Below are positions 20,797-51,587 of a stretch of DNA of 64,000 bases, piece after piece; the first letter of the stretch is position 1; each line of letters opens with the position of its first letter. Both the position numbers and the translations under genes were made by a program. The DNA comes from Novosphingobium sp. CF614 (lineage in GTDB: Bacteria; Pseudomonadota; Alphaproteobacteria; Sphingomonadales; Sphingomonadaceae). Below the pieces are notes generated by a model that saw only the letters and a list, made by a program, of their open reading frames with translations, had not been told where the DNA came from and made no database searches. The DNA is taken from contig NZ_FOOR01000001.1 in the NCBI RefSeq assembly GCF_900113255.1, positions 310,001-374,000 of the forward strand. The letters are read 5' to 3'.

Positions 20797-22785
20797 ATGC
20801 CTATCGTACCGACTTATCCCGGCGTCTACGTCGAAGAACTGAGCAGCGGCGTGCGCCCGCTTGCCGGGGTCCCCACCGCCATTGCCGCCTTCGTCGGCTA
20901 TACCGCGCGCGGGCTGGACAACCGGGCGACGACGATCTTCAGTTACGCGGACTACGAACGCGGATTCGGCGGGCTCGCCGCCAACAGCGAACTCAGCTAC
21001 GCGGTCCAGCAGTTCTTCCAGAACGGCGGCGGCCAGGCGATCGTCGTGCGCGTGCCCAAGAGCGACGGCGTGGCCGCGAAGATCGACCTCAAGGAAGGCA
21101 TCTCCAATCCCGCCAAGGTGAGCTTTACCCTCACCGCGACCAGCAAGGGCGCCTGGGGCAACAAGATCATCGCCGACGTCGACTATGACGGCGCCGCCGC
21201 GAACAACTTCAACCTGACGCTGACCGACCTGGGCACGGGCGAGACCGAGCGCTGGGCCGATCTCAGCGTCTCGACCGCGTCCACCCGCTTCATCGAGGCC
21301 ATTCTCAACGATCCGGCCAACGGCTCGAAGCTGGCGACGGCGAAGATTCCCGCGGCCAATCCCGGCGCCCGGCCGGCGGAAAGCGGCGTGGTCGGCACCG
21401 ACTTCACGGTGACCGGCGCCGGCATCACCGGCCTTGCCAACGACAAGGACTACAAGGTCCTGGTCACCGCCAATCGCCCGGCAGGGGCGATCGCCAACCT
21501 CAGCGTGACGCTCATCAAGCAGAACGAGACGCTGCCGACTTCGGTAGTCGCGCTGGCCCGCCTGCTCGAACGCCGCTTCAACGAAGCGCTCGGCGCGGCG
21601 CTGCCGGGGGCGGCGGTCAGGGTCGGCGTCACCGGATCGGGCAAGGGCCTGCGCATCGTGCCGACGTTCGATCCGGCGCTGCTGCCGGCCGCGACCGACA
21701 CCATGCTTTCGCTGGCCGATGGCGCACCGGCAGGCGCGCTGGCCATGCTCAAGCTGCCCTCGGCCAACTTCAACGTCGGCCGCTACCGGCTCGGCACCGG
21801 CACGGCGGAAGCGGCGCAGCGTACTCCGGTCGCCGGCGCGGACGGCGTCCAGCTTCCCCAGAGCGCTGACCTGATCGGCAATGCCGCCGCCTTCACCGGC
21901 ATCCATGCGCTGGAAAAGGCCGATATCTTCAACATCCTGATCCTGCCCGACGCCACGCGCGCCAGCCCGAGCGATCCCAACGCGCTCGCCAGCGGGCTCG
22001 ATCCGAATGCGATCTACCAGGCCGCGCTCGATTATTGCGCGAAGCGCCGCGCTTTCCTGCTGATCGATCCGCCGCCGACCGTGAACACGGTGGACCGCGC
22101 CTTCGAGTGGATATCCTCCGGGCTGACCGTCAAGGGTCCCAATGCCGCCGCCTATTTCCCGCGCGTGCGCATGGCCGATCCGCTCAATGACTTCCAGCTG
22201 CGCACGTTCGGGCCTTCCGGCGCGATCGCCGGGCTCTATGCCCGCACCGACGCCGAGCGCGGCGTGTGGAAGGCGCCCGCCGGCACCGACGCCCAGCTGC
22301 GCGGCGTGCGCGGGCTGGTCTACAAGCTTTCCGACAGCGAGAATGGACTGCTCAATCCGCTCGGGCTCAACTGCATCCGCGCGCTGCCGGTCTATGGTAC
22401 GCTTTCATGGGGCACCCGCACCCGCGTGGGCGCCGATGTCGAGGCGAACCAGTGGAAGTACGTGCCGGTCCGCCGCCTGGCGCTGATGATCGAGGAAAGC
22501 CTGTTCCGGGGCACCCAGTGGGTGGTGTTCGAACCCAATGACGAACCGCTCTGGGCGCAAGTCCGGCTCAACCTCACCACGTTCATGCACGGGCTGTTCC
22601 GCCAGGGCGCGTTCCAGGGGCAGACCCCGCGCGACGCCTACCTGGTCAAGTGCGACAAGGAGACGACGACGCAGGCCGACATCGATCGCGGCATCGTCAA
22701 CATCCTCGTCGGCTTCGCGCCGCTCAAGCCGGCGGAATTCGTGATGATCCGCATCCAGCAGCTCGCCGGCCAGGCGACATCGTAA
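20797..22785 (+). CDS. eCIS contractile sheath protein (Afp2-4/Pvc2-4-like)
   Basis: This is a phage-tail-sheath family protein of 662 residues. It starts with the family motif YPGVYVEELSSGVRPLAGVPT and a FVGYTARG/YADYERGFGG segment. The C-terminal sheath core includes GTLSWGTRTR, MIEESLFRGTQWVVFEPNDEPLW and FRQGAFQG. It polymerises around the inner tube and contracts to drive it through a target envelope. It is longer than many eCIS sheaths; an added surface domain probably lies around residues 170-340. It is the only sheath gene in the locus, whereas Afp/PVC systems have three. The start ATG 20797 is set by the strong GGAGAAGGAGAG. Confidence 0.95.
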   Translation: MPIVPTYPGVYVEELSSGVRPLAGVPTAIAAFVGYTARGLDNRATTIFSYADYERGFGGLAANSELSYAVQQFFQNGGGQAIVVRVPKSDGVAAKIDLKEGISNPAKVSFTLTATSKGAWGNKIIADVDYDGAAANNFNLTLTDLGTGETERWADLSVSTASTRFIEAILNDPANGSKLATAKIPAANPGARPAESGVVGTDFTVTGAGITGLANDKDYKVLVTANRPAGAIANLSVTLIKQNETLPTSVVALARLLERRFNEALGAALPGAAVRVGVTGSGKGLRIVPTFDPALLPAATDTMLSLADGAPAGALAMLKLPSANFNVGRYRLGTGTAEAAQRTPVAGADGVQLPQSADLIGNAAAFTGIHALEKADIFNILILPDATRASPSDPNALASGLDPNAIYQAALDYCAKRRAFLLIDPPPTVNTVDRAFEWISSGLTVKGPNAAAYFPRVRMADPLNDFQLRTFGPSGAIAGLYARTDAERGVWKAPAGTDAQLRGVRGLVYKLSDSENGLLNPLGLNCIRALPVYGTLSWGTRTRVGADVEANQWKYVPVRRLALMIEESLFRGTQWVVFEPNDEPLWAQVRLNLTTFMHGLFRQGAFQGQTPRDAYLVKCDKETTTQADIDRGIVNILVGFAPLKPAEFVMIRIQQLAGQATS

Positions 22786-22801
22786 GAGAGGGGGTGCTCC
22801 A

Positions 22802-23326
22802 ATGGCTCAGTTCAATGTCAACGCCCAGCGTTTCGACCCTTACAAGAACTTCAAGTTCCGGGTGAAATGGGATGGCCGGTATGTCGCCGGCGTCAGCAAG
22901 GTGAGCGCGCTCAAGCGCACCACCGAAGTGGTCAAGCACCGCGAGGGCGGCGATCCGTCGTCCAGCCGCAAGTCGCCCGGCCGCAGCGAGTTCGAGGCGG
23001 TCACCCTCGAACGCGGCGTCACCCACGACGTCGAGTTCGAACGCTGGGCTAACAAGGTGTGGAACTTCGGCTCCGCGCTCGGCGCCGAAGTCTCGCTGGC
23101 CGATTTCCGCAAGGACATCACCATCGAGCTTTACAACGAGGCCGGACAGCCCGCGATCGTCTACCGCCTGTTCCGCTGCTGGATCAGCGAGTTCCAGTCG
23201 ATGCCCGATCTTGACGCCAATGCCAACGCGGTGGCGATCCAGCACATCAAGATCGAAAACGAAGGCTGGGAGCGCGACTATGCGGTGACGGAACCGTCCG
23301 AGCCGAGCTTCGTCGAACCGCAGTAG
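22802..23326 (+). CDS. eCIS inner tube protein (gp19/Hcp-like, Afp1/Pvc1 type)
   Basis: This 174-residue member of the T4 gp19 tail-tube family has an N-terminus of FDPYKNFKFRVKWDGRYVAG, a loop with KHREGGDPSSSRKSPGR, LERGVTHDVEFERWANKV, and a C-terminal LDANANAVAIQHIKIENEGW. It stacks as hexameric rings inside the sheath and carries cargo. It follows the sheath gene by 16 nt with its own GAGGGGG Shine-Dalgarno. A single tube gene is present. Confidence 0.95.
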   Translation: MAQFNVNAQRFDPYKNFKFRVKWDGRYVAGVSKVSALKRTTEVVKHREGGDPSSSRKSPGRSEFEAVTLERGVTHDVEFERWANKVWNFGSALGAEVSLADFRKDITIELYNEAGQPAIVYRLFRCWISEFQSMPDLDANANAVAIQHIKIENEGWERDYAVTEPSEPSFVEPQ

Positions 23327-23330
23327 TGCC

Positions 23331-24050
23331 ATGTTGGACAATCCGGTCGAGAACCTGCTCGCCCTTTGGGAGGCGGGCACGAACCCGCTCACCCTGCTTT
23401 CGGCGGCGCGCGTGGAGAGCGGCGACACCCCACTCGCCGCGCTGCCCCTGGGCGCGCGCGACGCCGCGCTGATCGAGGTCCAGCGCGGCCTGTTCGGCCC
23501 GGCGATCGAAACCACCGTGCCTTGCCCCGCCTGCGGCGAGACGGCGGAAGTCGTGCTCGACGCGGGGGACCTGCTGGCATCGGCCCGGGCGCCGGATCGG
23601 GGCGCCACCCTCCCCCGCGTTTCGATGGCGGGCTGGGAGATCGAGGCACGCCCGGCCGACAGCCGCGACATGGCCACGATCGCCGGGCTCGGTGACGTGG
23701 ACGAAGCGGCCCGCGCCCTGACCAGCCGGCTGGTCACCTCCTGCCGCCACCATGGCCGCGAAGCCGACCCCGCCACGTTGCCCGCCGAGGTGATCGCGGC
23801 GCTGGGCAATGCCCTGGAAGCCGCCGACCCGCTTGCCGCCATCGCGGTCGAGATCGCCTGCCCCGGGTGCGGGGGGCCGATCGCCGCCCTGCTCGATCCG
23901 GCCCACCACCTCGCCCGCTCGGTCGCCGCCGAGGCGCACCGCCTGCTCGGTGAAGTCGCCACCCTGGCGCGCTTCTACGGCTGGCGCGAGGCCGATATCC
24001 TGGCGCTCAGCCCGATGCGGCGCGGCGCCTACCTGGAGCTGGCGCAATGA
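23331..24050 (+). CDS. Zinc-ribbon baseplate (hub assembly chaperone-like) protein
   Basis: This is a 239-residue protein with two CxxC knuckles, CPACGE near residue 65 and CPGCGG near 180, spaced as paired zinc-binding ribbons. It has a helical C-terminus ending in FYGWREADILALSPMRRGAYL. This arrangement is seen in phage T4 baseplate hub assembly chaperone-like proteins found next to tube genes in contractile systems. It probably acts in baseplate assembly or tube loading rather than in DNA binding. It overlaps the next gene by 4 nt. Family assignment is by pattern only. Confidence 0.7.
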   Translation: MLDNPVENLLALWEAGTNPLTLLSAARVESGDTPLAALPLGARDAALIEVQRGLFGPAIETTVPCPACGETAEVVLDAGDLLASARAPDRGATLPRVSMAGWEIEARPADSRDMATIAGLGDVDEAARALTSRLVTSCRHHGREADPATLPAEVIAALGNALEAADPLAAIAVEIACPGCGGPIAALLDPAHHLARSVAAEAHRLLGEVATLARFYGWREADILALSPMRRGAYLELAQ

Positions 24051-24895
24051 ACGGTTATTTCGCCGGCATCGCCTCCCGCGCGCTGGGCCGCGCCACGGTG
24101 CTGACCCCGCGCCCGCGATCGCTGTTCGAGCGATCCGGGCCGGAAGCCGGCTTCGAGGAACTGGAGAACGAACGCCGCGCCGCGCCGGCATCGCGTTCGC
24201 CAGCGCCGCCGCCGCCGGAAACGATCACGGAGCCCGCCCCGCCGATGCCGGCTGCCGCCCTCCCGCGACCGACCCCGGCGCGCCGCGATGGGGCGCCGGC
24301 GCCGGAACCGGTGCCCGCCATCACCCGGATCTTCGTGACCGCGCCGGCATCGACCCCGCCCCGACAGGTCCATCCAAGCCCACCACAAGCGGCGATGGAA
24401 AGCCGGCCGGCAGCACAGACCCCGCAAGGCCCCGCGCCGGCCGAACCATCCGCCCCCGCCGCGATACCCGCCGCGCCGCCAGTACCCGCCCCTTCGCGCG
24501 AAGCTTCCGCGAGGCCAGCCGCCATGCCGGAGCACCGGGAACCGGTCCGCTCCAGGGACCTGGAAACCCGCACCGTGATCCGCGAGGCCGCCACCGCCAG
24601 GGGCGAACAGGACGTATCGCCGCAACGGCCCCCCGCGGTGCCGCCGCCCTCCGCACCCATGGCGACAGCCCGGTCCACGCCGGCATCCCTGCCCCCGCCC
24701 GCCACTGCCGCCACGCCTCGCCGCCCCGCGCCGACGGCGCGCGGCGAACCGCCGGTCGTGGTGCGGATCGAGCGGATCGACATCCACGCCGCTCCGCCCG
24801 CGCCCTCCCCCGAGCGTCGCCGGCCCGCGCCCGCCGCACCCGCCGCGCCGGGCCCCTCGCTCGCCGAATTCCTCGCCGCCGGGGATCGCCGATGA
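24047..24895 (+). CDS. Pro/Ala-rich disordered eCIS accessory protein
   Basis: This 282-residue protein has no recognisable enzyme domain. A short conserved-looking N-terminal helix (GYFAGIASRALGRATVLTPR) is followed by about 200 residues of Pro/Ala/Arg-rich disorder. The tail carries two compact motifs, VVVRIERIDIHA and SLAEFLAAGD. Short terminal motifs linked by disorder suggest a flexible tether or scaffold in the particle or its assembly (inference). It overlaps both neighbours by 4 nt, so it is translated with the structural genes. It is unlikely to be spurious because the frame stays open with good codon usage. Confidence 0.75.
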   Translation: MNGYFAGIASRALGRATVLTPRPRSLFERSGPEAGFEELENERRAAPASRSPAPPPPETITEPAPPMPAAALPRPTPARRDGAPAPEPVPAITRIFVTAPASTPPRQVHPSPPQAAMESRPAAQTPQGPAPAEPSAPAAIPAAPPVPAPSREASARPAAMPEHREPVRSRDLETRTVIREAATARGEQDVSPQRPPAVPPPSAPMATARSTPASLPPPATAATPRRPAPTARGEPPVVVRIERIDIHAAPPAPSPERRRPAPAAPAAPGPSLAEFLAAGDRR

Positions 24896-26196
24896 GCACG
24901 CCTTATGCCCTTGCCGCCGTCACCATGGTGCTGCGCCAGCAGATCGTCGAGGGCCTCGCGCTCGACAAGGTAGGCGACGCGGTCGGCACCATCGGGGTCA
25001 GCGCCGGCCCGCCCGACCAGGTGGTCAAGCCGAACCAGGCCGAACCGACCCGGGTCAATATCTATCTCCACCAGGTCACCCCCAACGCGGCCTGGCGCAA
25101 CGTGGGCCTGCCCACCCGCGACAGCCGGGGCGACGTGATCTCGGCACCGCCGCTGGCGCTGACGCTGCACTACCTCGTCACCACGTTCGCCGCCGACATG
25201 TATGTCGCCGAAGTGCTGCTGGGGCACACGCTGCGCATTCTCCACGAGAACGCCGTGCTCACCCGCGAGGCGGTGCGCCGCGCACTGGTGCCGCCCAGCG
25301 CCAGCGCGCTCAACTCGGCGATCGAGGCTTCGGGGCTGGCCGACCAGATCGAGCTTATCAAGCTCACGCCCACGGCCATCGCGCTGGAAGACATGTCGCG
25401 CATCTGGTCGGCGTTCCAGGCGCACTACCGCACCACCGTCGCCTACGAGGCGACCGTGGTGCTGATCGATCCGCGCGCCAAGGCCCGGCCCGCGCTGCCC
25501 GCCGCTGCCCGCGCCGTCTTCGGCGAGACTTTGGCGCTGCCCGAGATCGCGCGCACGGGCGCCCCGGACGATCCGCAAGCGCCAGTGACCACCGAGGACA
25601 TGCTGGCGGTGACGGGCGCGCGGCTGCTGGCAAGCGCGAATACGGTGGTGCGCATCGGCGATACCGACCGCGCGCCGGCGCCGGATTCCCGGCCCGACGA
25701 ACTGCGCGTGGACCTTGCCGCCGCGCCGCGCCCGCGCGCCGGTGTGCAGAGCGTCACGGTCATCCACCCGCGCCAGATGGGCGAACCGGCGACCGCGCAC
25801 GAAGGCGTGTTCTCCAACGCCGCCGCCCTGATCCTGCGTCCGGCGGTGACCGGCGTGGTGATCGCCAACAGCGCCACGCGCACGGTGGACGGCGTCGACT
25901 ATGCCGACGGCACGCTGACCATCGATGCCGCCCGTGCGATCGGCCGCGACCAGCGCGTCGAAGTCCTGCTCAACGAACGCGGCGCCCCGGCCTCGCGCCC
26001 GCCGCGCGGCTATGTGATCGCGGCGCCCGCGGCCAATGGATTCGCCGCCGGTGTCGACGAGGCCTTGCAAGTCGCGGTGCCCTATGCCGCCGTGGCGCGC
26101 GGCGACTACCTCGTGCGGCTGCGCGTCGATGGCGCCGACAGCCTGCTGACGGTGGGCGGCGACGGCCGCTATGCCGCGCCGCTGGTGACGATATGA
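24892..26196 (+). CDS. DUF4255 family eCIS cap/terminator protein (Pvc16-like)
   Basis: This is a 434-residue protein. The N-terminal DUF4255-type domain (about 1-190) contains TRVNIYLHQVTPNAAWRN, LALTLHYLVTTFA and LLGHTLRILHENAVL. In Afp/PVC-type systems this family caps the distal end of the sheath-tube. A longer C-terminal region (250-434) has Ig/IPT-like beta sequence (VQSVTVIHPRQMGEPA, RDQRVEVLLNER). It lies directly before the AAA+ ATPase, the usual eCIS order. Start ATG 24892 lies in an ATGA overlap. Confidence 0.88.
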   Translation: MSTPYALAAVTMVLRQQIVEGLALDKVGDAVGTIGVSAGPPDQVVKPNQAEPTRVNIYLHQVTPNAAWRNVGLPTRDSRGDVISAPPLALTLHYLVTTFAADMYVAEVLLGHTLRILHENAVLTREAVRRALVPPSASALNSAIEASGLADQIELIKLTPTAIALEDMSRIWSAFQAHYRTTVAYEATVVLIDPRAKARPALPAAARAVFGETLALPEIARTGAPDDPQAPVTTEDMLAVTGARLLASANTVVRIGDTDRAPAPDSRPDELRVDLAAAPRPRAGVQSVTVIHPRQMGEPATAHEGVFSNAAALILRPAVTGVVIANSATRTVDGVDYADGTLTIDAARAIGRDQRVEVLLNERGAPASRPPRGYVIAAPAANGFAAGVDEALQVAVPYAAVARGDYLVRLRVDGADSLLTVGGDGRYAAPLVTI

Positions 26197-28130
26197 CCGC
26201 CGATACCCAGCCGCTCGCCCGCGAGATGGCGGTGATCGAGGCCCGGCTCGCGCTCGCGGCGGCGCTGAGCGGATCCGAGGACGACATCGCTCAGGCCGAT
26301 GCCCTGCTGGAGGCGGCGCTGGCGGGGCTGGGCGCCGGCGGCCCCGCGCGCCGGCTGGCCGAGCGACTGGGCCTGGGCGCTTTCGAGCGGGACTGTCTGC
26401 TGCTTGCCGCCGGCCCCCATCTCAACCCCCGCGTGGCGCCCCTGTGCGCCCGTTTCTCCGGAGACCCGCAAGGCCGCGTGACCGCCGCCGTCGCCATGGC
26501 CGCGCTGCCCGGCGCGCAGTGGTCGGCGCTGCGCCCCGACGCGCCCCTGCGCGCGCTGCGCTGCCTGCGCCTGGCCGATCCCGACCGCCCAACCTTGTCC
26601 GAGCTGCTCATAGACGAGCGCATGCTGCTCGCGCTCCTGGGCGAGGACGCGATGGACGAGCGGCTCGCGCCGCTGGTGCAGCCCGTCGGCGCCTCCGGGA
26701 CCTTGCCCGATACCGGCCGCCAGGCGGTGACCCGGCTGGTCGAGCGCTGGTGGGCGGTGCGCGCGGGCGAGCAGGCTCCGGTGCTCCAGATCCGCCATGG
26801 CGAGGGCGAAGGCGCCGACGCGCGGATGATCGCCGCCGCCATCGCCGAGCGGCTGGGACGCCGACTCCATGCGCTGAGCCCCGCCAACCTGCCGCCAACG
26901 TCCGCCGAGCGCCATGGCTTTGCCGCGCTGTGGCGGCGCGAACAGCTGCTGGGCGGGCTCGCCCTGCTGATCGAGCTGCCCGACGATCCCTCTCCCGACC
27001 AGCTCGCCATGACCGCCGACATGGCCGACCGGCTCGACGACCTCGTGGTGGTCACCGGCCAGGGCGCCCTGCCCTGCCGCCGCGCGCTGGTCGGCGAAAC
27101 GCTGGCCCGGCCCGACGTGCAGGAGCGCCACGCGCTGTGGGCCCAGGGCCTGGGCCGCGAAGCCACCGCCAGGCTCAACGGCGCGACCGAGGCGCTGGCC
27201 CGGCAGTTCGAACTCGGCGCCACCGCGATCGGCCGCCTGAGCGCGCTGGCGCGGGGAATGGAGCCGGACATCGCCAAGGACCTCCTCAACCGCGAGGCCC
27301 GCGCGCATGCGCAGTCGCGCATCGCCGCGATCGCCGATGTGATCCATCCGGCGGCGAGCTGGGACGACCTGGTCCTCCCCCCGGATCTCAAGGCGGTGCT
27401 CAAGGGCATCGCCGCGCAAGTCCGCCACCGCGCGCAAGTGCATGACGACTGGGGCTTCGCCGCGCGCGGTTCGCGCGGGCTGGGCATCGCCGCGCTGTTC
27501 GCGGGACCGAGCGGCACCGGCAAGACCATGGCCGCCGAAGTGATCGCCGGAGATCTCCGCACCGATCTCGTCCGCGTCGACCTGGCCGGGGTGGTCAGCA
27601 AATACATCGGCGAGACCGAGAAGAACCTCTCGCGCGTGTTCGCCGCCGCCGAGGGCAGCGGCGCGGTGCTGCTGTTCGACGAGGCCGACGCGCTGTTCGG
27701 CAAGCGCAGCGAAGTCTCCAGCGCGCATGACCGCTACGCCAATATCGAGGTGAGCTATCTGCTTCAGCGGATGGAGAGCTACACCGGCCTTGCCATCCTC
27801 ACCACCAACCAGCGCGAATCGCTCGACGGGGCGTTCTTCCGGCGGCTGCGCTTCGTGCTGGGTTTCCCGTTCCCCGATGCCCCGCTGCGCCGCGCGGTCT
27901 GGGAACGCGCCTTCCCCGCGCAGACCGAAACGCAGGGGCTCGACCTGGAGCAGCTGTCGCGGCTCAACGTCGCGCCCGGCAATATCCGCGGCATCGCCAT
28001 CAATGCCGCCTTCCTGGCCGCCGCCCAGGCGCAGCCCGTCACCATGCGCCACGTGCATGAGGCCGCCGTGCTCGAATGCCGCAAGCTGGAACGCCCGGTG
28101 ACCGCCGCCGAGCTGGGAGGCTGGCTGTGA
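26193..28130 (+). CDS. eCIS AAA+ ATPase (Pvc15-like)
   Basis: This 645-residue protein ends in one AAA+ module: Walker A GPSGTGKT at about 438-445, Walker B LLFDEADALFGKR around Asp496-Glu497, then a NIEVSYLLQRMESY helix and NQRESLDGAFFRRLRF with arginine-finger candidates. The N-terminal 400 residues are helical and specific to the eCIS ATPase family. These ATPases are encoded in almost every eCIS locus and are thought to act in assembly or cargo loading, not contraction. It overlaps the DUF4255 gene and the next small gene by 4 nt. Confidence 0.93.
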   Translation: MTADTQPLAREMAVIEARLALAAALSGSEDDIAQADALLEAALAGLGAGGPARRLAERLGLGAFERDCLLLAAGPHLNPRVAPLCARFSGDPQGRVTAAVAMAALPGAQWSALRPDAPLRALRCLRLADPDRPTLSELLIDERMLLALLGEDAMDERLAPLVQPVGASGTLPDTGRQAVTRLVERWWAVRAGEQAPVLQIRHGEGEGADARMIAAAIAERLGRRLHALSPANLPPTSAERHGFAALWRREQLLGGLALLIELPDDPSPDQLAMTADMADRLDDLVVVTGQGALPCRRALVGETLARPDVQERHALWAQGLGREATARLNGATEALARQFELGATAIGRLSALARGMEPDIAKDLLNREARAHAQSRIAAIADVIHPAASWDDLVLPPDLKAVLKGIAAQVRHRAQVHDDWGFAARGSRGLGIAALFAGPSGTGKTMAAEVIAGDLRTDLVRVDLAGVVSKYIGETEKNLSRVFAAAEGSGAVLLFDEADALFGKRSEVSSAHDRYANIEVSYLLQRMESYTGLAILTTNQRESLDGAFFRRLRFVLGFPFPDAPLRRAVWERAFPAQTETQGLDLEQLSRLNVAPGNIRGIAINAAFLAAAQAQPVTMRHVHEAAVLECRKLERPVTAAELGGWL

Positions 28131-28360
28131 GCCGGGTGCGCATCGAAGTGGGCGAACTGGTGTTCCACGGGCTGGACCGCGACGCGGCGCAGGCGGCCGG
28201 CGCGGCCTTTTCGGCCGAACTCGAACGGCTGGTGACGCAGCGCGGCATCGGCCGTCCCGCGCCCGCGCCGCGTCTCAGCGCCCGGCCGGGCCCCGCCGAT
28301 CTCGGCCGGGCAGCGGCGGCCCGGGTCCATGCCAGGATCGCCCGGGGAGCCAGCGTGTGA
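28127..28360 (+). CDS. Small 77-aa eCIS-associated protein
   Basis: This short protein starts at GTG 28127 (VSRVRIEVGELVFHGLDRDA) and contains a predicted beta hairpin followed by a helix (AAGAAFSAELERLVTQRG) and a basic tail. It has 4-nt overlaps with both neighbours, so it is very probably translated. I recognise no catalytic motif. A GxLVxxG-helix layout between the ATPase and a DUF4157 gene suggests an adaptor linking the two (inference). Confidence 0.7.
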   Translation: MSRVRIEVGELVFHGLDRDAAQAAGAAFSAELERLVTQRGIGRPAPAPRLSARPGPADLGRAAAARVHARIARGASV

Positions 28361-40382: not shown

Positions 40383-40741
40383 CTCATATAGCCTTCCCGC
40401 TGACCTTCGATTCCGGCGGCCGCAGCGCCGCGACGGGCACCGAGGCCTATGTCCGCATGCTGATCGGACAATTGCTGCTCACCTCCCCCGGCGAGCGGGT
40501 GATGCGGCCCGAGTTCGGCAGCGGGCTGCGGCAGATCCTGTTCGGCGGCAGCGATCCCTCGATCGCGATCGCCGTCGAACTGGGGCTGCAAGGCGCGCTC
40601 AACCAGTGGCTCGGCGATCTCGTCGAAGTCGGGCAAGTGCAGGTGACGAGCGACGAGGCCACCTTGCGCGTCAGCGTCGCCTATACCTTGCGCGGCACCG
40701 GCGAGGGCAAGATCGCAACCATCGAAAGGCCGGTGGCATGA
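40379..40741 (+). CDS. eCIS baseplate wedge protein gp25-like
   Basis: This 120-residue protein is of the gp25/lysozyme-like baseplate family. It contains VRMLIGQLLLTSPGERVMRP followed by EFGSGLRQILFGG, the hallmark R-P-E-F-G segment. gp25 connects the sheath to the wedge. It overlaps PAAR and the first baseplate J gene by 4 nt each. Confidence 0.93.
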   Translation: MTHIAFPLTFDSGGRSAATGTEAYVRMLIGQLLLTSPGERVMRPEFGSGLRQILFGGSDPSIAIAVELGLQGALNQWLGDLVEVGQVQVTSDEATLRVSVAYTLRGTGEGKIATIERPVA

Positions 40742-43155: not shown

Positions 43156-45887
43156 GCGCCGATCCCGAATGCGCCTGCTTCGGCGGCGCCCCGGCATCCC
43201 CCGACCCGCAGCCGGGCCTCACCCGCATTCCCTGGCGGCTGGCGACCCACGGCACCTTCAACGGCGCCATGCTGGACCAGTTGCACAAGGCCCCGGCGCT
43301 CGCGCGGCTGACCACGCGCGATCCCTCCGACCCGGCGATCGCGCTGCTCGACGGCTGGGCGGTGACGCTCGACATCCTGGCCTTCTACAACGAACGCATC
43401 GGCAACGAGGGCTTCCTGCGCCCCGCCACCGAGCGCCGCTCGGTGCTCGAACTGGCGCGGCTGATCGGGTATTCCCCCGCGCCGGGGGTCTCCGCCTCGA
43501 CGTTCCTGGCGGTGAACTGCGACACCATTCCCGGCTCGCCGGAGCAGGTGACGCTGCCCGCCGGGGCCGGGGTGATGAGCGTGCCCGGCCCCGGCGAGAA
43601 GCCGCAGATCTTCGAGACCGACGCCGAGATCGTCGCTCGCCCGGCCTGGCAGGATCTGCACGCCCAGAGCGTCCACTACGTCGCCCCGGCGGCGGGCGAT
43701 ACCCGGCTGATGCTCTATCCGCCCACCCAGCTCAAGACCGGCGACATGGTGCTGGTGGTAGGGGGCGAACGCATCGCCGATGCACAGAGCCCGCGCTGGC
43801 AGGCGCGCCGCGTCGCGGGCGTGGAGGACATTCCCGCCGACCCGATTGACCAGGTGCCGCCACGCAGCGAAGTGCTGCTGGAATCCGCGCTGGGCGCCGC
43901 TGCCACCATCCCGCTGCAATCGCCGCGCGTCTATGCGATGCGCCAGCGCACCAATATCTTCGGCCACAACGCCCCGGCCTGGGAATCGCTGCCGATCGTG
44001 CTGCGCGTGGGCGAGTTCCTGCCGATCGCCGTGGCCGCCCAGACGGTGCCCGCGCTCCAGGCGCTGGAGGCTAGCAAACAGTCCAGCAACGCGATCGTAT
44101 CGTTCGCGCCGGGCGGACCATCCGGGGCGATGTCGGAGATGGCGGCGGGCGGCGGCACCGCGTCGCTCGGCTATGGCGGCATCCTGGACGACATCACCAA
44201 CATCATGGAGTTCGACGCCACCCGCAAGCTGGCGCCGGGCATCTACGCCGGCCGCCGGACGAGCTGGGCCGACGCCCCGTTCCCCGCCGGCCGGGACTAC
44301 ATCGACCTCGACCAGGTCTACGACCGCTTCGTGGCGGGAAGCTGGATCGTGCTGCGCGCGGGCACCACCATGCAGGCCTACCAGGTGACCGAGGCGACCG
44401 AGATCAGCGTCAGCGACTTCGGCATGTCGGCCAAGGTCACGCGCCTCAAGCTGCGCGGCCCCTCGCTCTCGTCGTTCTCGCCGCGCTCGACCTCGGTCCA
44501 TGGCGTCAGCGAATTGATCCCCTGGGGAATGACACCGATCACCACCCCGGTTGCAGGGCGCGAAGTCACGCTCAGCAAGCCGGTCGAGGGCCTCGCGGCA
44601 GGCCAGCGGGTCGCGCTCACCGGCAGCGAGGCCGCGAGCGGGAATGCCGCCGCGCGGATCCTGACGATCGAGCAGGTTTCCACCGTCCCGGCGGGCGGCG
44701 ACGCGGCCCAGCTCGCCCCGCCCGCGACCATGACCACGCGGCTGCGCTTCACATCCGACATCGCCCCGGGGCTGGCGCCGCGCTCGGTGCGCATCAACGC
44801 CAATGTCGTTTCCGCCAGCCACGGCGAAACGCGCGAGGACGCGATCGGCAACGGCAACGCGGCGATCGCCTTCCAGACGGTGCCACTGCCCAGCAAGCCG
44901 CTCACCTGGGTCTCCTCGTCGAACCCGCCGGGCCGCGCGACCACGCTGCGGGTGCGGATCGGCGCGAGCTGGTGGAACGAGGTGCACAGCTTCGTCGGCG
45001 CCGGCCCGCGCGACCGTGTCTTCACCACCCGCACCGCAGACGACGGCACCGTCACCGTCCAGTTCGGCGACGGCGTGACCGGTGCCCGTCTGCCGAGCGG
45101 CAAGGGCAACATCATGGCCCGCTATCGCACCGGCACGGGCCTGGCGGGCATGCTCAAGGCCGGCCAGCTCAGCCAGCCGCTGCAACGCCCGGCGGGCTTT
45201 GCCGGCGTGGTCAACCCACTGCCGACCGGTGGCGCCGAGGACCCCGAAAGCCTCGATGCCGCCCGCGCCAACGCGCCGGTCACGGTGCGCGCGATGGAGC
45301 GCATCGTCAGCCTGGCCGACGTCGCCGACTATGCCCGCGCCTTCGCCGGGATCGGCAAGGCCGACGCGGCGCTGGTGCGCGACGGCACCTGGCGCAGCAT
45401 CGTCCTGACGATCGCCGACACCGGCGGCGGCATGCCCGCGGCGGGCGACACGCTGTTCGACAATCTGGAGGAATCGATCGCAGCGGTGCGCAGCGGCGGC
45501 GACTATGCCGGCCAGCGCCATGGCTTGCCGATCACCCTTGCCGGATACCGGGCGCGGGGCTTCGCGCTCCGTTCCGAGCTGATCCTGGCGAGCGACGCGG
45601 TTGCCGCCACCGTGCTCGCAGCGGCGCGCGCGGCGCTGCTCCAGGCCTTCGGCTTCGCGGCACGGCAATTCGCCCAGCCCGCCAGCCTGGCCGAGGCATC
45701 GGCGGTGCTGCACGGCGTCGGCGGCGTGCGCGCCGCGCGCTTCACCCGCTTCCACCGGCTCGACCAGCCGGCCGGCGTCGCGCCCGTGCTGCCCTCGGCC
45801 ATGGCCGGACGGCTGGGCAACGGCTGGCAGGGGGCGGAACTGCTCACCCTCGATCCGGATCAACTCGTGCTGACGCAGGTGCAATGA
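43152..45887 (+). CDS. eCIS baseplate J-like wedge protein 2
   Basis: This 911-residue second J-family protein has DGWAVTLDILAFYNERIGNE and RRSVLELARLIGYSPAPGVS near the N-terminus. The middle is long and beta-rich (250-600). The C-terminus has TVQFGDGVTGARLPSGKGNI and VSLADVADYARAFAGIGKAD, which match baseplate J family landmarks. Afp11/Pvc12-like wedge dimers commonly use two such proteins. It overlaps both neighbours by 4 nt. Confidence 0.9.
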   Translation: MSADPECACFGGAPASPDPQPGLTRIPWRLATHGTFNGAMLDQLHKAPALARLTTRDPSDPAIALLDGWAVTLDILAFYNERIGNEGFLRPATERRSVLELARLIGYSPAPGVSASTFLAVNCDTIPGSPEQVTLPAGAGVMSVPGPGEKPQIFETDAEIVARPAWQDLHAQSVHYVAPAAGDTRLMLYPPTQLKTGDMVLVVGGERIADAQSPRWQARRVAGVEDIPADPIDQVPPRSEVLLESALGAAATIPLQSPRVYAMRQRTNIFGHNAPAWESLPIVLRVGEFLPIAVAAQTVPALQALEASKQSSNAIVSFAPGGPSGAMSEMAAGGGTASLGYGGILDDITNIMEFDATRKLAPGIYAGRRTSWADAPFPAGRDYIDLDQVYDRFVAGSWIVLRAGTTMQAYQVTEATEISVSDFGMSAKVTRLKLRGPSLSSFSPRSTSVHGVSELIPWGMTPITTPVAGREVTLSKPVEGLAAGQRVALTGSEAASGNAAARILTIEQVSTVPAGGDAAQLAPPATMTTRLRFTSDIAPGLAPRSVRINANVVSASHGETREDAIGNGNAAIAFQTVPLPSKPLTWVSSSNPPGRATTLRVRIGASWWNEVHSFVGAGPRDRVFTTRTADDGTVTVQFGDGVTGARLPSGKGNIMARYRTGTGLAGMLKAGQLSQPLQRPAGFAGVVNPLPTGGAEDPESLDAARANAPVTVRAMERIVSLADVADYARAFAGIGKADAALVRDGTWRSIVLTIADTGGGMPAAGDTLFDNLEESIAAVRSGGDYAGQRHGLPITLAGYRARGFALRSELILASDAVAATVLAAARAALLQAFGFAARQFAQPASLAEASAVLHGVGGVRAARFTRFHRLDQPAGVAPVLPSAMAGRLGNGWQGAELLTLDPDQLVLTQVQ

Positions 45888-48070
45888 TGCGCATGGATGG
45901 AGACCGCCTCTACACCGCCCTGCCCGCCTACTTGCACGAGGCCGACCTTGAAGCGGGCGGGGCCGTCGAAGCGCTGTTCGGCATCATGGGCGGCGAGGCC
46001 GACCGGCTCGGACGCGCCATCGACGCGATGGCCGAAAGCTGGTTCATCGAAACCTGCCCCGAATGGGCGGTGCCCTATATCGCCGACCTGCTGGCGGTGC
46101 GCGCGCTCACCCAGACCGACGGCTTTTCCGAACGCGCCTGGGTGGCGCAGACGGTGGCCCTGCGGCGGCGCAAGGGAACGCTCGGGATCATCGGCACGCT
46201 GACCCGCGCGACCACCGGCTGGCCGGCGCTGCCGGTGGAGATGTTCCAGCGGCTCGCCACCACCCAGTCGCTGAGCCACTTGCGGCCCGGCGCGCCGGCC
46301 AGCGCCCTGGTGCGCGAGCCGGAGCGGATGCGGCGGCACGATACCGCGTTCGACGCCCTGCCGCACACGCTGGACATCCGCTCCATCGCGCGCGGCCAGG
46401 GGCGCTACAACGTGCCCAACATCGGCATCTTCGGCTGGCGCCAGCAGGTCTATCCGCTGGAGGCGGTGGAAGCCGCGCCGGCCGGCGCCGGGCGTTTCCT
46501 GTGCGATCCGGCCGGGCGCGCGCTGCCCTTGTGGAACCCGCCCGGCCCGCTGGCCTCCGCCGCCCCGCGCGAGGCGGACCTGCCGGCCCTGCTCGACCGC
46601 CGCACGCTCTATCTCGAACTGGAGGCCCTGCGCGCCGACAGCGCCGCCGGGCGCACCCCCGCCCCCGCCTGGTTCGATGACGAACCGCCGCTCCGCCTCT
46701 GGGTGCAGGACGCGGACGGCGATCCCTGGACCGAGATCCCGCGCGAGGAACTGGCGAGCGCGGACCTGCACGACGTGGCCGACGCGCGCGGCTGGCGCCG
46801 TCCGCCGGCCTCGCTCGATTACCCCGACGCCGGCGGCAACCCCGTCGCCCGCGCCATCCGTGCCGCCTTCGATCCGGTACGCGGCCGCATCGCCTTTCCC
46901 GATGGGATCGCCCCCCACGCCGTGCATTGCAGCCACGCGCTCGCCGCGCCGGGCGACCTCGGCGCCGGCCCCTATGACCGCACCGCGACCGTCGCGGGCC
47001 TGCTCGCGGGCCGGTCGATCACCTGGCAGGTCGGCGTCAGCCGCCGCCGCGCGGCGGTGCCGGGGGTGATCTTCGCCACCGTGGCCGAAGCGGTGGCCGA
47101 ATGGAACACGCTGCCCCCCGGCACCGTCGGCGCTATCGCCCTGCTCGACAACGACCGTTTCGACGAGGACTTGTCCGGCCCGCGGACGATCGTCGTGCCG
47201 CAGGGCAGCCTGCTGCTGCTGGTCAGCGCCGACTGGCCCGAGACCCCGCGCGAGGGCGGCGGCAGCGACCTGCTGCCCGGATCGCTCACCCCGCGCGATC
47301 GCCGCGCCGCGATCACCGGCAACGTGGCGGTCGCCGGCAGCGCCCCGGCCGAGGCGCTCGATCCCGGCGCGCTGGTGCTCGACGGGCTGCTGGTGGGCGG
47401 CGCGGTGCTGGCATCCCCGGATGACGGCGCCAACCTGGGCGAGCTGGTGGTCTCCAACTGCACCGTGCTCGGCGGCCAGGGCGTGACGATCGAGGGCGAC
47501 CACGAACGGCTCACGCTTACCCTGCGGCGCAGCGTCTGCACCCTGGTCTCGGCCCCTGCCACGGTGCCGGGGCTGGAAGGGCGCGAAACGGTGGTGCTCG
47601 GCCCGCTGGCGATGCCGGGGGCGCGGGCCTCGCTCGCCGGGATGACCGTGACCGGGCTGGCGCAGCTGCAATCGGTCTCCGCCACCGACACCATTTTCGC
47701 CCGGACGCTGATCGCGACCCGCCGCCAGGTGGGATGCCTGCGCTTCTCTTACGTTCCCCCCGGCTCGTCCGGCCCGCGCCAGTTCCGCTGCCAGCCCGAC
47801 CTGGCCATCAAGGAGGCGGGAGCCGGCGCCGACGCGGCCGCGATCGCCGCGCGGCTGGGCCTCGCCTTCGATACGCTGGAGCCCGGCGCGGCCGGCTTCG
47901 CCCGCCTGTCCTGGCGCTGCGATCCGGCCATCACCGCAGGCGCGGAAAGCGGCGGGGCCATGGGCGTCTGGCGTTTCCTCGAGGAAACCCAGCGCCGCGC
48001 CAATCTCGATATCGCACTCGACGAATACCTGGGCCTGGGCCTGGAAGCCGGACTGATACCGGCCAGCTGA
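45884..48070 (+). CDS. Enlarged tail protein I-like baseplate protein (728 aa)
   Basis: The N-terminal 200 residues fit phage tail protein I/Afp12-type proteins: LYTALPAYLHEADLEAGGAV, WFIETCPEWAVPYIADLLAV, LRRRKGTLGIIGTLTRATTG. Those proteins are usually about 200 residues when free-standing, so this one carries about 500 extra residues. The extension contains strand-turn repeats in its second half (VVSNCTVLGGQGVTIEGDHE, MTVTGLAQLQSVSATDTIFA) that look like a right-handed beta-helix. This resembles a tail-fibre or receptor-binding appendage fused to the wedge (inference). Two adjacent ATGs are possible starts. Confidence 0.85.
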   Translation: MMRMDGDRLYTALPAYLHEADLEAGGAVEALFGIMGGEADRLGRAIDAMAESWFIETCPEWAVPYIADLLAVRALTQTDGFSERAWVAQTVALRRRKGTLGIIGTLTRATTGWPALPVEMFQRLATTQSLSHLRPGAPASALVREPERMRRHDTAFDALPHTLDIRSIARGQGRYNVPNIGIFGWRQQVYPLEAVEAAPAGAGRFLCDPAGRALPLWNPPGPLASAAPREADLPALLDRRTLYLELEALRADSAAGRTPAPAWFDDEPPLRLWVQDADGDPWTEIPREELASADLHDVADARGWRRPPASLDYPDAGGNPVARAIRAAFDPVRGRIAFPDGIAPHAVHCSHALAAPGDLGAGPYDRTATVAGLLAGRSITWQVGVSRRRAAVPGVIFATVAEAVAEWNTLPPGTVGAIALLDNDRFDEDLSGPRTIVVPQGSLLLLVSADWPETPREGGGSDLLPGSLTPRDRRAAITGNVAVAGSAPAEALDPGALVLDGLLVGGAVLASPDDGANLGELVVSNCTVLGGQGVTIEGDHERLTLTLRRSVCTLVSAPATVPGLEGRETVVLGPLAMPGARASLAGMTVTGLAQLQSVSATDTIFARTLIATRRQVGCLRFSYVPPGSSGPRQFRCQPDLAIKEAGAGADAAAIAARLGLAFDTLEPGAAGFARLSWRCDPAITAGAESGGAMGVWRFLEETQRRANLDIALDEYLGLGLEAGLIPAS

Positions 48071-48089
48071 ACTTGCAGGAGAAAATAGG

Positions 48090-51000
48090 ATGAAAGGCGA
48101 TTTTTCCCGGCTGCGGTTCGATCCGACCCGGCAATACGACGCGGTCCTGCTGCAGCAGGGCCGGGTGGCGCTGGACGCCGACGCGAACGAGGCCGCCGTG
48201 ATCGCGCTCGATCGCGACCGGCGTACCAGCGCCGACGTGATCGGCAAAGTCGGCGCCCCGCAGGACACCCCCGGCTTCGGCATCTCGGTCGAGCCCGCCG
48301 GCAAGCTCGGCGTCGGCGCCGGCACGCTCTATGTCGACGGCATCCGCTGCATTAACCCGGCCAAGTACCTGCACGACGCGCAGCCCTACCTGCCAGCCGG
48401 CGCCCCCGTCTTCGTCGCGCCGGACGGCACGCTTTCCGCCGCGCCCGCCGACGGCCGCTACATCGGCTTCGTCGACGTCTGGCACCGCCACGTCACCGCG
48501 CTGGAAGACGACGCGCTGATGGAGGAGGCGCTGGGCGTCGATACCGCCACGCGCCTGCAAGTGATCGAGCAGGTCCGCTTCCTGCGGGCGGGCAACGCCG
48601 GGGACGCGGCGATCACCTGCGACGCGGCGGTGCCGGCGTGGAACACCCTCGTCACCCCGCCCGACGGCACCATGGCCGCGCGCGGCAAGCCGGCCGATGC
48701 CGAGGCCAACCCTTGCGCGTTCCCCGAAACCGCCGGCTACCAGCGCCTTGAGAACCACTTGTACCGGGTGGAAATCCACAAGAGCGGCACCGTCGCCAGC
48801 GGCGCCACGTTCAAGTGGTCGCGCGACAATGCCGCCTTCGCCACGCGCTGGCTGGAAAGCAATGGCGATACCCTGACGCTCGCCGACACCGGCCGCGACG
48901 CCCAGAGCGGCCTCAAGCCGGGCCAGTGGATCGAACTGACCGACGACGACAAGGAACTGTCCGGCCGGCCCGGCACGCTGGTGCGCATCCTCAGCCTGAT
49001 CGGCACCCGCGTGCGGCTCGACACGCCGACCGCCGACGGCCCGATCGCGATCGCCCAGTTCGGCCGCAACCCCAAGGTTCGCGCCTGGGATTCCCCGGGC
49101 GCCGTCGCCATCACCGTCCCCGCCGGCAACGACGGTTTCCTGCCGCTCGAAAGCGGGCTGGAAGTCCTGTTCGCGGCGGGCAGGAAGTACCGTTCCGGGG
49201 ACTGGTGGGTGGTCCCGGCGCGCAGCGGCAGCGGCATCGACTGGCCTGAGGCCGGCGGCGTGCCCCAGGCCAAGCCGCCTTGCGGGGTCGAGCACTCCTA
49301 CGCCAGGCTCGCGGTGCTGGACCGCGTGGCCGGCGTCTGGACGCTGATCGGCGATTGCCGGCCGCTGTTCCCGCCGCTCACCGCGATGAAGCAGCTCGCC
49401 ATGCTCGGCGGCGACGGGCAGGAAGCGCTGCCCGACCCCACCCAGCCGGCACTGCTCTGCCCGCTCGCCGACCCGCTGCGGGTCGGCGTGTTCCGGGGCA
49501 CCACCCCGGTGGCCGGCGCGCGGGTGCGCTTCCGCATCCTTACCGGGGGCGGCAAGCTCGATCCGGTGCTGCCCTCGGGCGGGGCCACCAGCGTCATCCG
49601 CGTGACCGACCCCCAGGGCGAGGCGACCGCGCCCTGGGCGCTGGACGCGACGACCCCCACGCAGCAGGTCCGCGCCGAGCTGCTCGATTCCACCAATACC
49701 CCGATCGGCCTCGCCGTGACCTTCGGCGCCAGCCTTTCCACTGCCGCGCATGTCTCGTTCGATCCCGCGCCCGCGCCCAGCCTGGCCGGAATCGTCACCG
49801 TCCAGCGCGCGATCGAGGAACTGGCCAAGCGCGTGGGCGGCGGCTGCGTGGAAGTGACGCTTTCGCCCGGCACCGACTGGGGCAAGATCCTGCGCGACCT
49901 GCCCAAGGGCGAGGATGCGACCATCTGCTTCCGCCAGGGTGACTTCACCACCGACGAGCCGGTGGTGATCGAAGGGCTGGGCCATGTCGTGATCCACGGC
50001 GGCGGCGCGGCCACCCGCGTCACCGGCACCAAGAACGAGCGCGTGCTGGAATTCCTGGACTGCGCCAGCCTGACGATGCGCGACCTGACGATCGCCGCCG
50101 TGCAGGATTTCCACGAGCACCTCGAGCACCGCGGCGGCGCGCTCACCGTCACCGGATGCCCGGTCGTCTCGCTGGAGAACCTCGTCGTCACTTGCGGGGC
50201 CTCGCTGGGGAACGAGCGCACGTGCGTGACGGTGCGCGGCGGCGACAACGACGGGCAGACCGTCCCGGTCGAGCACGTCGAGGTTTCCGGTTGCCGCTTC
50301 GTCGCGGGTTTCGGGCAAGGCGGGCTGCTCGTCACCGACGCGATCGATTCGGTGATCCGCGACAACAGCCTCGCGGTGGCGCCGCTGCCTTCGACGATCA
50401 GCTTCGAGGAACTGGCGACCGACCCCGAACGCATGGGCCTGCTGGCCCGCCAGCTCGCCCGCGACTTCGCGCCGGCGGACGCCGTCAGCACGGCGCCGGC
50501 CGGATCGGTGATCGTCGGCAACTATGCGATAAGCATGGCCTCGATGGTCGATACCAAGGACTGGCAGACGCTGATCGCCGCCAATCCGCCCGCCGAGGCG
50601 GAGGCCAGGAGCGTCGACGGTGTTCAATCCTACATGAAGCGCATCACCGACAAGGCCTTGTCGGAAACCTCGGACACCTCGGGCACGGCTCGGGCATTCA
50701 CGTCCTCCGCCTCGCAGATGCGCAAGGTCATGGGCCGCCAGACCGGCTTCGAGATGTCCTCCGAACTGCTCGGCGACCTGATCCGGGGCGGCGACATGCA
50801 AGTGGTGGAAGTGCCGGGCGGCGCCAACGCGGCGGGCGGGCGGATCGTCATCCCGGTGGGCCAGTGGCGCGTGAGCTTCGAATCGGAAATCGGCCAGGAA
50901 GCCTGGACCCAGATCGCCCGCACGCATGTGGAGGAACTGACCGCCCAGAGCGAACAGGAGGCCGAGGAGGCGATCGACCGCCTCGTCAAGCGCTTCGTCA

Positions 51001-51587
51001 CCGATGCCGAACTGCGCAAGACCTCCCCGGCGGTCAGCGCCTGGTTCAACGACCTGAAGAAGAACCTGGGCGTGGTCGGCGCCCAGGCGATCGTGGTCGC
51101 CGGCAGTCTCGGCCGCATGACCCGGATCGAGCGCAACGAGGCCGATCACTTCCTCGAAGGCGTCCACGTCGCGCTGGCCCGCCGGGGGGACGGCGCGGGC
51201 GACCACGTCGATTTCGGCAGCATCGCGGTGATCGCCAACCGCCTGCGCCTGCGCCTGCCGGTCGAGTACTTGTGGGGCGGCCACGGCATCTACGTGGGCA
51301 ACGCGGCGCGCGTGCGCGTGAACGACAACGAGATCGACATGGCCACCGGCGATCCGCAGGCGCTGCGCTTTCACGAAGGCATCCGCATCTGGGGCTACCT
51401 CGGCAACTTCGTCCACGTCCTGGCCAACGCGATCACCCTTGCCCGCGTCGGCATCCGCGTCGTCGCCGAGCGCGAGCCGCAGGACTACAAGTCGCTGCAA
51501 TGGCTCGCCGCCGACAACCTCGCGGTGGACGCCAGCACCACGGTGGATGCGCCGGAATGGATGCGCCTGCGCGACAACGCGCCGTGA
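48090..51587 (+). CDS. DUF6519/right-handed beta-helix tail-fibre-like protein
   Basis: This 1165-residue last gene of the eCIS operon begins MKGDFSRLRFDPTRQYDAVL with LQQGRVALDADANEA, the DUF6519 signature found in contractile-system loci. An Ig-like segment follows at about 470-550 (PVAGARVRFRILTGGGKLDP). A beta-helix with rungs such as VVIHGGGAATRV, LTMRDLTIAAVQD and VEHVEVSGCRFVAG runs from about 590 to 760. A helical insertion lies near 950, and a second helix-like block (GIYVGNAARVRVNDNEIDMA) is near the C-terminus. It is probably a fibre or surface-binding component. A GGAGAAAA Shine-Dalgarno precedes the ATG. Confidence 0.85.
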   Translation: MKGDFSRLRFDPTRQYDAVLLQQGRVALDADANEAAVIALDRDRRTSADVIGKVGAPQDTPGFGISVEPAGKLGVGAGTLYVDGIRCINPAKYLHDAQPYLPAGAPVFVAPDGTLSAAPADGRYIGFVDVWHRHVTALEDDALMEEALGVDTATRLQVIEQVRFLRAGNAGDAAITCDAAVPAWNTLVTPPDGTMAARGKPADAEANPCAFPETAGYQRLENHLYRVEIHKSGTVASGATFKWSRDNAAFATRWLESNGDTLTLADTGRDAQSGLKPGQWIELTDDDKELSGRPGTLVRILSLIGTRVRLDTPTADGPIAIAQFGRNPKVRAWDSPGAVAITVPAGNDGFLPLESGLEVLFAAGRKYRSGDWWVVPARSGSGIDWPEAGGVPQAKPPCGVEHSYARLAVLDRVAGVWTLIGDCRPLFPPLTAMKQLAMLGGDGQEALPDPTQPALLCPLADPLRVGVFRGTTPVAGARVRFRILTGGGKLDPVLPSGGATSVIRVTDPQGEATAPWALDATTPTQQVRAELLDSTNTPIGLAVTFGASLSTAAHVSFDPAPAPSLAGIVTVQRAIEELAKRVGGGCVEVTLSPGTDWGKILRDLPKGEDATICFRQGDFTTDEPVVIEGLGHVVIHGGGAATRVTGTKNERVLEFLDCASLTMRDLTIAAVQDFHEHLEHRGGALTVTGCPVVSLENLVVTCGASLGNERTCVTVRGGDNDGQTVPVEHVEVSGCRFVAGFGQGGLLVTDAIDSVIRDNSLAVAPLPSTISFEELATDPERMGLLARQLARDFAPADAVSTAPAGSVIVGNYAISMASMVDTKDWQTLIAANPPAEAEARSVDGVQSYMKRITDKALSETSDTSGTARAFTSSASQMRKVMGRQTGFEMSSELLGDLIRGGDMQVVEVPGGANAAGGRIVIPVGQWRVSFESEIGQEAWTQIARTHVEELTAQSEQEAEEAIDRLVKRFVTDAELRKTSPAVSAWFNDLKKNLGVVGAQAIVVAGSLGRMTRIERNEADHFLEGVHVALARRGDGAGDHVDFGSIAVIANRLRLRLPVEYLWGGHGIYVGNAARVRVNDNEIDMATGDPQALRFHEGIRIWGYLGNFVHVLANAITLARVGIRVVAEREPQDYKSLQWLAADNLAVDASTTVDAPEWMRLRDNAP

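Follow-up and report, generated by a model that had tools for sequence, protein, structure and literature searches.

A DUF6519-type contractile injection locus in Novosphingobium sp. CF614 with a giant eCIS_core protein, probably cargo, of predicted beta-groove fold

We analysed a 64,000-nucleotide stretch of the Novosphingobium sp. CF614 genome (contig NZ_FOOR01000001.1, positions 310,001 to 374,000; hereafter the window), in which 19 co-directional genes on the + strand (20797-51587) encode a contractile injection system, as judged from open reading frames (ORFs), GC content by codon position and protein family scans. The machine, whose release from the cell is putative, has a chassis of a known type, the DUF6519 (eBAP5) type of extracellular contractile injection system (eCIS), and its unusual element is a giant protein of 2,477 amino acids (aa), probably a cargo with a predicted lipid-groove body. 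The reading that we favour, with moderate confidence, is that of a DUF6519/Tail_P2_I contractile injection system whose variable, likely cargo, slot holds this eCIS_core protein with its predicted long amphipathic beta groove. A tentative and somewhat unlikely extension is that the system fires a folded bridge-like lipid-transfer protein, a 2,500-residue groove of tens of nm in the tube lumen, which would move or extract lipids between target membranes.

An earlier note, made from the letters of this DNA, had described a complete single-operon eCIS, and profile scans placed every structural part that it named on the + strand and in the order it gave, with sheath, tube, Pvc16, AAA+, CIS_tube, J, gp25 and DUF4157 families in one cluster. 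The locus carries a single sheath gene and a single gp19 tube gene, and the VgrG is indeed divided, with an OB-type spike gene separate from the hub gene. The parts list was correct but lacked four further genes (those for the Zn-ribbon, proline-rich, 77-aa and 122-aa LysM/tail-X-position proteins); the DUF4255 cap (24892-26196) stands in the right order but not directly after the tube, as the Zn-ribbon and proline-rich genes intervene; and both DUF4157 proteins were recovered, even though the 2,477-aa size of the first had been overlooked. The word complete applies to the sheath, tube, baseplate and cap, and we limit it to these because Pfam scans of 17 of the 19 proteins, NCBIfam scans of 18 and PHROGs scans of 10 brought up no tape-measure family. 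The block is likely one operon, since 14 of its 18 gene junctions are overlaps of 4 or 8 bp and the widest gap measures 107 bp (37223-37331, with starts as chosen here). The gene order recurs identically in N. resinovorum, Micromonospora, Bryobacter, Lysobacter, Bradyrhizobium and others, and is therefore not due to chance. The 19 genes are as follows:

20797..22785, +, tail sheath, 662 aa (PF17482 7.8e-11; PHROG_23 tail sheath 1.3e-54; PDB sheaths; 90-91% identity to N. resinovorum)
22802..23326, +, tail tube, gp19/Hcp-like, 174 aa (PF06841 8e-46; TIGR02241 6e-44; N. resinovorum protein identical)
23331..24050, +, Zn-ribbon protein, weakly T4_baseplate-like, 239 aa (weak PF12322/CPXCG matches below cut-off; position conserved)
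24047..24895, +, proline-rich protein, 282 aa (no family; 35-41% to N. resinovorum)
24892..26196, +, Pvc16/DUF4255 cap (tube terminator), 434 aa (PF14065, Pvc16_N, 2.4e-42)
26193..28130, +, AAA+ ATPase with winged-helix domain, Pvc15-like, 645 aa (PF00004 6e-24; winged-helix PF22977 2.5e-12)
28127..28360, +, small protein, 77 aa (ORF, 4-bp overlap with the start of the giant; 67-71% to N. resinovorum)
28357..35790, +, giant eCIS_core/DUF4157 protein, predicted cargo, 2,477 aa (PF13699 2.9e-8)
35787..37223, +, second eCIS_core/DUF4157 protein (core2), 478 aa (PF13699 1e-25; OmpA-like PF00691 3e-5, below cut-off)
37331..37987, +, CIS_tube tube initiator, 218 aa (PF19266 3.5e-6, 27.3 bits at a cut-off of 27; 45-50% in distant loci)
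37984..38352, +, protein in LysM/tail-X position, 122 aa (no Pfam match; position conserved)
38345..39526, +, hub, N-terminal half of split VgrG, 393 aa (by position; 92% identity to N. resinovorum; weak PHROG_52 tail protein 0.0085; no Pfam or NCBIfam match)
39523..40038, +, spike, VgrG OB/beta-helix half, 171 aa (TIGR01646 1.4e-9, below cut-off)
40035..40382, +, PAAR tip, 115 aa (PF05488 0.006, below cut-off; in a larger ORF)
40379..40741, +, gp25 baseplate wedge, 120 aa (PF04965 1.4e-12; in a larger ORF)
40738..43155, +, baseplate J-like protein 1, 805 aa (TIGR02243 8e-77; 9gtp baseplate 2.4e-9)
43152..45887, +, baseplate J-like protein 2, 911 aa (TIGR02243 7.6e-59)
45884..48070, +, Tail_P2_I/TIGR02242-like fibre adaptor, 728 aa (TIGR02242 2.5e-4 and PF09684 0.0026, both below curated cut-off)
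48090..51587, +, DUF6519 (eBAP5) fibre, 1,165 aa (PF20129 1.1e-57)

The giant eCIS_core protein and its slot

Relatives of the giant were sought among about 5.8 billion proteins, of which the best ~8,000 candidates by shared words, at 0.55-1.75 times its length, were scored. At least 12 giants were found in this way, the window's own included; sheath relatives in the same protein set, again with the best ~8,000 candidates scored, numbered at least 4,156. A scan of named genomes, with two short peptide patterns only, yielded 20 giant loci. In all 12 fetched loci that hold both flanking genes (L006, which is the N. resinovorum record NZ_BSFC01000043.1, L007, L009-L011, L013-L015, L017, L019, L021 and L022) the giant lies between the AAA+ and CIS_tube genes, and these loci span Pseudomonadota, Actinomycetota and Acidobacteriota (from record titles, with lineages for three genera). 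Two further contigs (L016, L018) start inside the giant and continue with CIS_tube, and in L020 the giant follows the baseplate and fibre genes. In the stretches of the remaining five loci (L008, L012, L023 and, from one assembly, L024 and L025) nothing of the chassis was seen beside the giant other than a core2-like match in L008; Pvc16_N was present in the genomes of all five loci tested (L008, L012, L020, L023, L024) and in none of 14 controls.

The giants align over their whole length, with distant members at 17-26% identity; the alignment of these distant members extends into the last 100 residues, and occupancy is lowest in the last bin, at 0.57. A profile of residues 1-1190, run against a sample of 398 genomes, matched at full length in the own genome only, while six others matched in the eCIS_core stretch alone. 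The motif HELVH occupies residues 79-83, with H79, E80 and H83 invariant in 12 proteins, and this HExxH is accompanied by conserved downstream glutamates. No terminal toxin domain was recognised in the giant by Pfam scans. Compared with N. resinovorum, its dN/dS is 0.32, against 0.00-0.11 for tube, spike, sheath and hub; core2 (0.36) and the LysM-position (0.35), Zn-ribbon (0.33) and proline-rich (0.51) proteins were also measured. By these ratios the giant is under purifying selection and evolves faster than tube, spike, sheath and hub, at about the pace of core2 and the LysM-position and Zn-ribbon proteins, and more slowly than the proline-rich protein. Two observations concern individual family members: the records of L009, L012 and L023 either lack the N-terminal HExxH region or have it in another frame, and strongly hydrophobic 19-residue segments (KD 2.7-2.8) occur in L011 (residue 1032), L016 (731), L018 (871) and P0010 (1031).

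DUF4157 has been described as a signature of predicted cargo, and 983 of 1,130 predicted toxins bearing it have no other domain annotated (Danov et al. 2024, PMC11297309). The giant shows features expected of a DUF4157 eCIS-associated effector, an N-terminal eCIS_core domain with HExxH and a gene in an eCIS-type locus, and an effector role is predicted for it. We compared the slot between the AAA+ and CIS_tube genes in 22 chassis-type stretches, with 10 dropped and 2 duplicates set aside. The slot holds a single eCIS_core protein of 693 aa in Rhizobium leguminosarum, of 1,164 aa in Streptomyces NBC_00299 and of 2,296 aa in Cupriavidus, and two eCIS_core ORFs in Ensifer (1,419 aa and a second core ORF) and in G434 (729 and 867 aa). 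Five loci (G478, G199, G034, Streptomyces anthocyanicus and NBC_01643) leave just 62-429 bp between the two genes. All of these except G034, whose stretch stops within the fibre gene, carry eCIS_core genes downstream of the fibre; the one in S. anthocyanicus, at the 3' end, is the giant itself.

Profiles of the helical, beta1 and beta2 parts of the giant matched the identical 21 of 1,456 ORFs and left the other slot proteins unmatched, whereas the eCIS_core profile matched 43 ORFs, including 17 of those 21 giants; the four that it missed either start partway through the gene or have a head that is absent or not in frame. Three of the 21 are from N. resinovorum, and S. anthocyanicus alone is independent of the profile's species. 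From these matches, eCIS_core is common to the cargo candidates, and the body of the giant occurs either entire or not at all. The variable slot between ATPase and tube initiator is likely a cargo slot, and the giant is probably cargo, because slot contents differ in other chassis loci and because the giant lies 3' in S. anthocyanicus.

Predicted fold of the giant and competing explanations

AlphaFold models were made of residues 1-1190 and 1280-2477. They predict a zincin-like head with the HELVH motif, a helical region to about residue 770 and then mainly long amphipathic antiparallel strands, interrupted by a helical insertion at about residues 987-1131; the second model has a pLDDT of 75 and a pTM of 0.58. 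Foldseek matches were taken from the best 50 listed in each of two libraries, and the only ones above 0.6 probability were LPD-3 (9cap; probability 0.95, E 2.6e-4, sixth by E among the matches listed) and two giant-virus chorein proteins, which rank first (0.97) and second (0.89) by E among the matches listed; LPD-3 is not among the VIA matches listed. The strand-angle alternation ratio was 1.21 in the C-terminal half of the giant (z 4.1, 4.2), 0.98-1.05 in eight other proteins of the locus, and 1.35 (z 7.2) in a TamB piece of 852 aa from the same genome; two other cargo candidates also show alternation. The second half of the giant is predicted to fold into a long, one-sided amphipathic beta groove that would handle lipids. 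Like LPD-3/BLTP1, VPS13 and TamB/AsmA it is very long, with long amphipathic antiparallel strands in its predicted fold, and members of this group gave the best Foldseek probabilities among the matches listed. The giant differs from bridge-like lipid-transfer proteins in its eCIS_core head and its place in an injection-system gene block, as well as in the sequence and TM-score comparisons given below.

Because of the protein families present, we infer a course of assembly, loading, contraction and delivery. Sheath and tube would polymerise on the baseplate, with Pvc16 as cap, and the eCIS_core head would lead the giant to the tube initiator and spike, as for other DUF4157 cargo. DUF4157 proteins have been treated as cargo or adaptor of contractile injection systems (PMC11126660, PMC13277306); the S. 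davawensis protein co-eluted with spike and tube initiator (PMC11126660), and the S. lividans one was tested for binding to spike-complex proteins (PMC13277306). The AAA+ ATPase and the second eCIS_core protein would perhaps assist loading of the giant; facilitation of effector loading by Pvc15 has been described (PMC11495950). The second eCIS_core protein is possibly a cargo adaptor, and its OmpA-like domain, of the peptidoglycan-binding type, could act as anchor or adaptor. The DUF6519 fibre would recognise the target, contraction would push tube and giant through its envelope, and inside the target the predicted groove would take up lipids or bridge them between membranes, while the metallopeptidase-like head may act in release or maturation. 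Lipid handling, which is drawn from the predicted fold, is the boldest of these steps.

Several points weigh against the favoured reading. TM-scores to bridge-like lipid-transfer proteins are low, no sequence homology of the giant to RBG/AsmA was found and the window protein has no Pfam match of this kind; alignment by hhalign to one TamB sequence gave a probability of 0.2, with little power as a single-sequence comparison. Moreover, the giant loci were collected through searches for the giant, and the only giant-less loci inside the giant-bearing clade are R. leguminosarum and NBC_00299, the others falling outside it (support 0.95). An explanation that we consider unlikely makes the giant a structural component, a ruler or tape measure in the tube lumen that is specific to the chassis clade, sets tube length and is passively ejected. 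It draws on the constant place of the giant ahead of the tube initiator in the 12 loci with both flanking genes and on the congruence of giant and chassis trees (Mantel r 0.87 for n=15), although Bradyrhizobium L022 takes different places in them. The giant is also found in 15 of 17 tree members of the chassis clade, though all except the window's were fetched for it; no other tape-measure family appeared in the proteins scanned, and a comparably placed DUF4157 effector of S. davawensis has been described as tape-measure-related (PMC11126660). This explanation sits poorly with the slots of only 62-429 bp in the five more distant chassis loci, with slot proteins of 693-2,296 aa that share eCIS_core only, two of them from loci inside the clade, and with the place of the giant after the fibre in S. 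anthocyanicus and L020; its second half is predicted to be beta-rich, and PHROGs tape-measure profiles gave no match to it at E 0.01. The S. davawensis system resembles that of the window in belonging to a clade across distant phyla and in having a large DUF4157 protein, Tme, of at least 2,247 aa, whose gene immediately precedes those of the baseplate (PMC11126660). By its published description, on which the comparison is based, Tme has transmembrane helices, coiled coils, ~70% disorder and a C-terminal endonuclease (PMC11126660), whereas the window giant has no 19-residue hydrophobic window above KD 1.6 and a second half predicted to be beta-rich.

To much the same degree improbable, in our view, is that the beta half forms a protective shell or adhesive scaffold (Rhs/teneurin-like, or an OspA-like single-layer sheet) that touches no lipids, the active part being the metallopeptidase head or the helical middle. 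LptD (E 1.2e-5) and teneurin-3 (E 1.8e-5, probability 0.15) have lower E values than LPD-3 and OspA also matches, among the matches listed, and the HExxH with its downstream glutamates fits an active head; yet the Foldseek probabilities of LptD, teneurin-3 and OspA are at most 0.51 against 0.95 for LPD-3, the strands of the giant alternate more than those of the eight other locus proteins, and no variable C-terminal toxin domain was recognised, the distant alignment reaching the last 100 residues at an occupancy of 0.57. Less probable still is that the locus is an ordinary eCIS of known type and the giant a long linker such as stands between DUF4157 and toxin domains. Linkers behind DUF4157 are occasionally longer than 1,000 aa (Geller et al. 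2021, PMC8213781), but the body of the giant has kept its architecture across three phyla, the three body profiles always occurred together in the ORFs tested, and a terminal toxin domain was not recognised in the giant by Pfam.

The favoured reading, a groove-bearing probable cargo in a variable slot, matters since the cargo of such machines in environmental bacteria is largely open and the locus points to one whole-length giant family in three phyla. If the predicted groove is right, the machine would inject a lipid-handling rod instead of an ordinary enzyme toxin, an effector class acting as lipid conduit and exchanged among at least three bacterial phyla, and the locus makes it a concrete question whether an eCIS can deliver lipid-transfer machinery. 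In the open-licence literature of PubMed Central we found nothing joining contractile injection with lipid transfer proteins or with Novosphingobium, nor DUF4157 with AsmA, though further reports may be in print; contractile injection with AsmA returned only a nanomaterial review, judged by title, and with Sphingomonas nothing on eCIS by title or start of abstract.

Type, relatives and spread of the injection system

By its genes the block is an eCIS-type contractile injection system, neither a myophage nor a type VI secretion system (T6SS), and its chassis is of the DUF6519 (eBAP5)/Tail_P2_I baseplate type rather than Afp/PVC-like. When sheaths were ranked by similarity in bits, the window sheath scored 253-244 bits against the solved sheaths 8bky, 9ezm and 8bl4, but 156 or less against the Afp/PVC side (Pvc2 156, Afp3 136); 7b5h, which we take to be from Anabaena, scored 144, 7adz, presumably AlgoCIS, 130, and pyocin 35. 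The window shares sheath, tube, hub-spike, PAAR, gp25, J, Pvc16 and AAA+ with Afp/PVC, whose gene numbers are consistent with the names in the PDB, and differs in that its sheath and its gp19 tube each come from a single gene, its VgrG is divided between two genes, and it has Tail_P2_I together with a DUF6519 fibre. The Tail_P2_I-like adaptor gene directly precedes the DUF6519 fibre gene, a homologue of it stands before the DUF6519 gene in Streptomyces, and the S. europaeiscabiei gene in the LysM/tail-X position is annotated 'tail protein X'. The lineage distinct from Afp/PVC that the earlier note had proposed is thus upheld by sheath scores and the Tail_P2_I and DUF6519 genes, but it is not new: a Tail_P2_I and DUF6519 baseplate type has been set apart from the Afp/PVC type (Nachmias et al. 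2026, PMC12923769). Systems of this eBAP5/DUF6519 type share with the window the DUF6519 fibre, Tail_P2_I-like adaptor, J, gp25, DUF4157, Pvc16 and CIS_tube; a 'mega pectin lyase' from Rhizobium grahamii is an example of an eBAP5 fibre, and the portion of that paper available to us describes no giant beta-groove cargo (PMC12923769).

The chassis is patchily distributed among the genomes sampled. A sheath match occurred in 9 of 98 genomes, the own included, and in 7 of 59 of the genus, whole-length matches of at least 90% being confined, among the 98, to the window and G029, a genome of the same genus; the tube matched at E <=1e-30 in 9 of 398 Pseudomonadota genomes, again with the own. Three of these nine (G424, G128 and G133, at L065, L067 and L073) have solitary gp19-like genes with 51-68% identity to the window tube and no other eCIS gene matched nearby. 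N. resinovorum SA1 carries the same block on megaplasmid pSA1; by blastn (E 1e-10) similarity begins at the sheath start codon, 20797, with no DNA similarity upstream of it within the 20 kb compared. In a tree of five chassis proteins from 27 loci, Streptomyces NBC_00299 is placed with N. resinovorum and the window at a support of 0.92, and Bryobacter, of the Acidobacteriota, with a Burkholderiales metagenome-assembled genome at 1.0; movement of the block between phyla would be expected to give such groupings. In Ensifer adhaerens (L031, 11466-18488) a 2,340-aa ORF stops some 2 kb short of the sheath match; it matched neither the eCIS_core nor the giant profiles and shows strand-type alternation of 1.19 in its last third.

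Genomic surroundings

The block lies on contig C21 (617 kb). To its left are the flagellar genes fliG and fliD together with genes for an aminotransferase and an HpcH-type aldolase; ruvB, ruvC, yebC and ribonucleotide reductase stand on its right. It is probably chromosomal in this strain, given the length of the contig and the flagellar and ruvB-ruvC neighbours. Ten flanking ORFs were scanned by Pfam: nine match housekeeping or flagellar families and one matches none. Phage head and packaging genes, whose presence next to the block the earlier note had named as evidence for a myophage, were absent from these ten, as were integration genes, so that a contractile injection system stands; no lysis family was among the matches obtained, lysis families not having been searched for by name.

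The earlier note had also seen no T6SS membrane complex, which is correct for the locus but not for the genome: IcmF (TssM), with TssJ and TssL outside the search, had its sole match on contig C28 and none on C21. Given this IcmF/TssM-type gene (C28:94794-95669, L005, in a 1,278-aa frame), the bacterium probably has a T6SS beside the contractile injection locus. A second phage-sheath gene (C29:56686-57159, L001; PF04984 1.7e-17) perhaps belongs to a prophage or tailocin.

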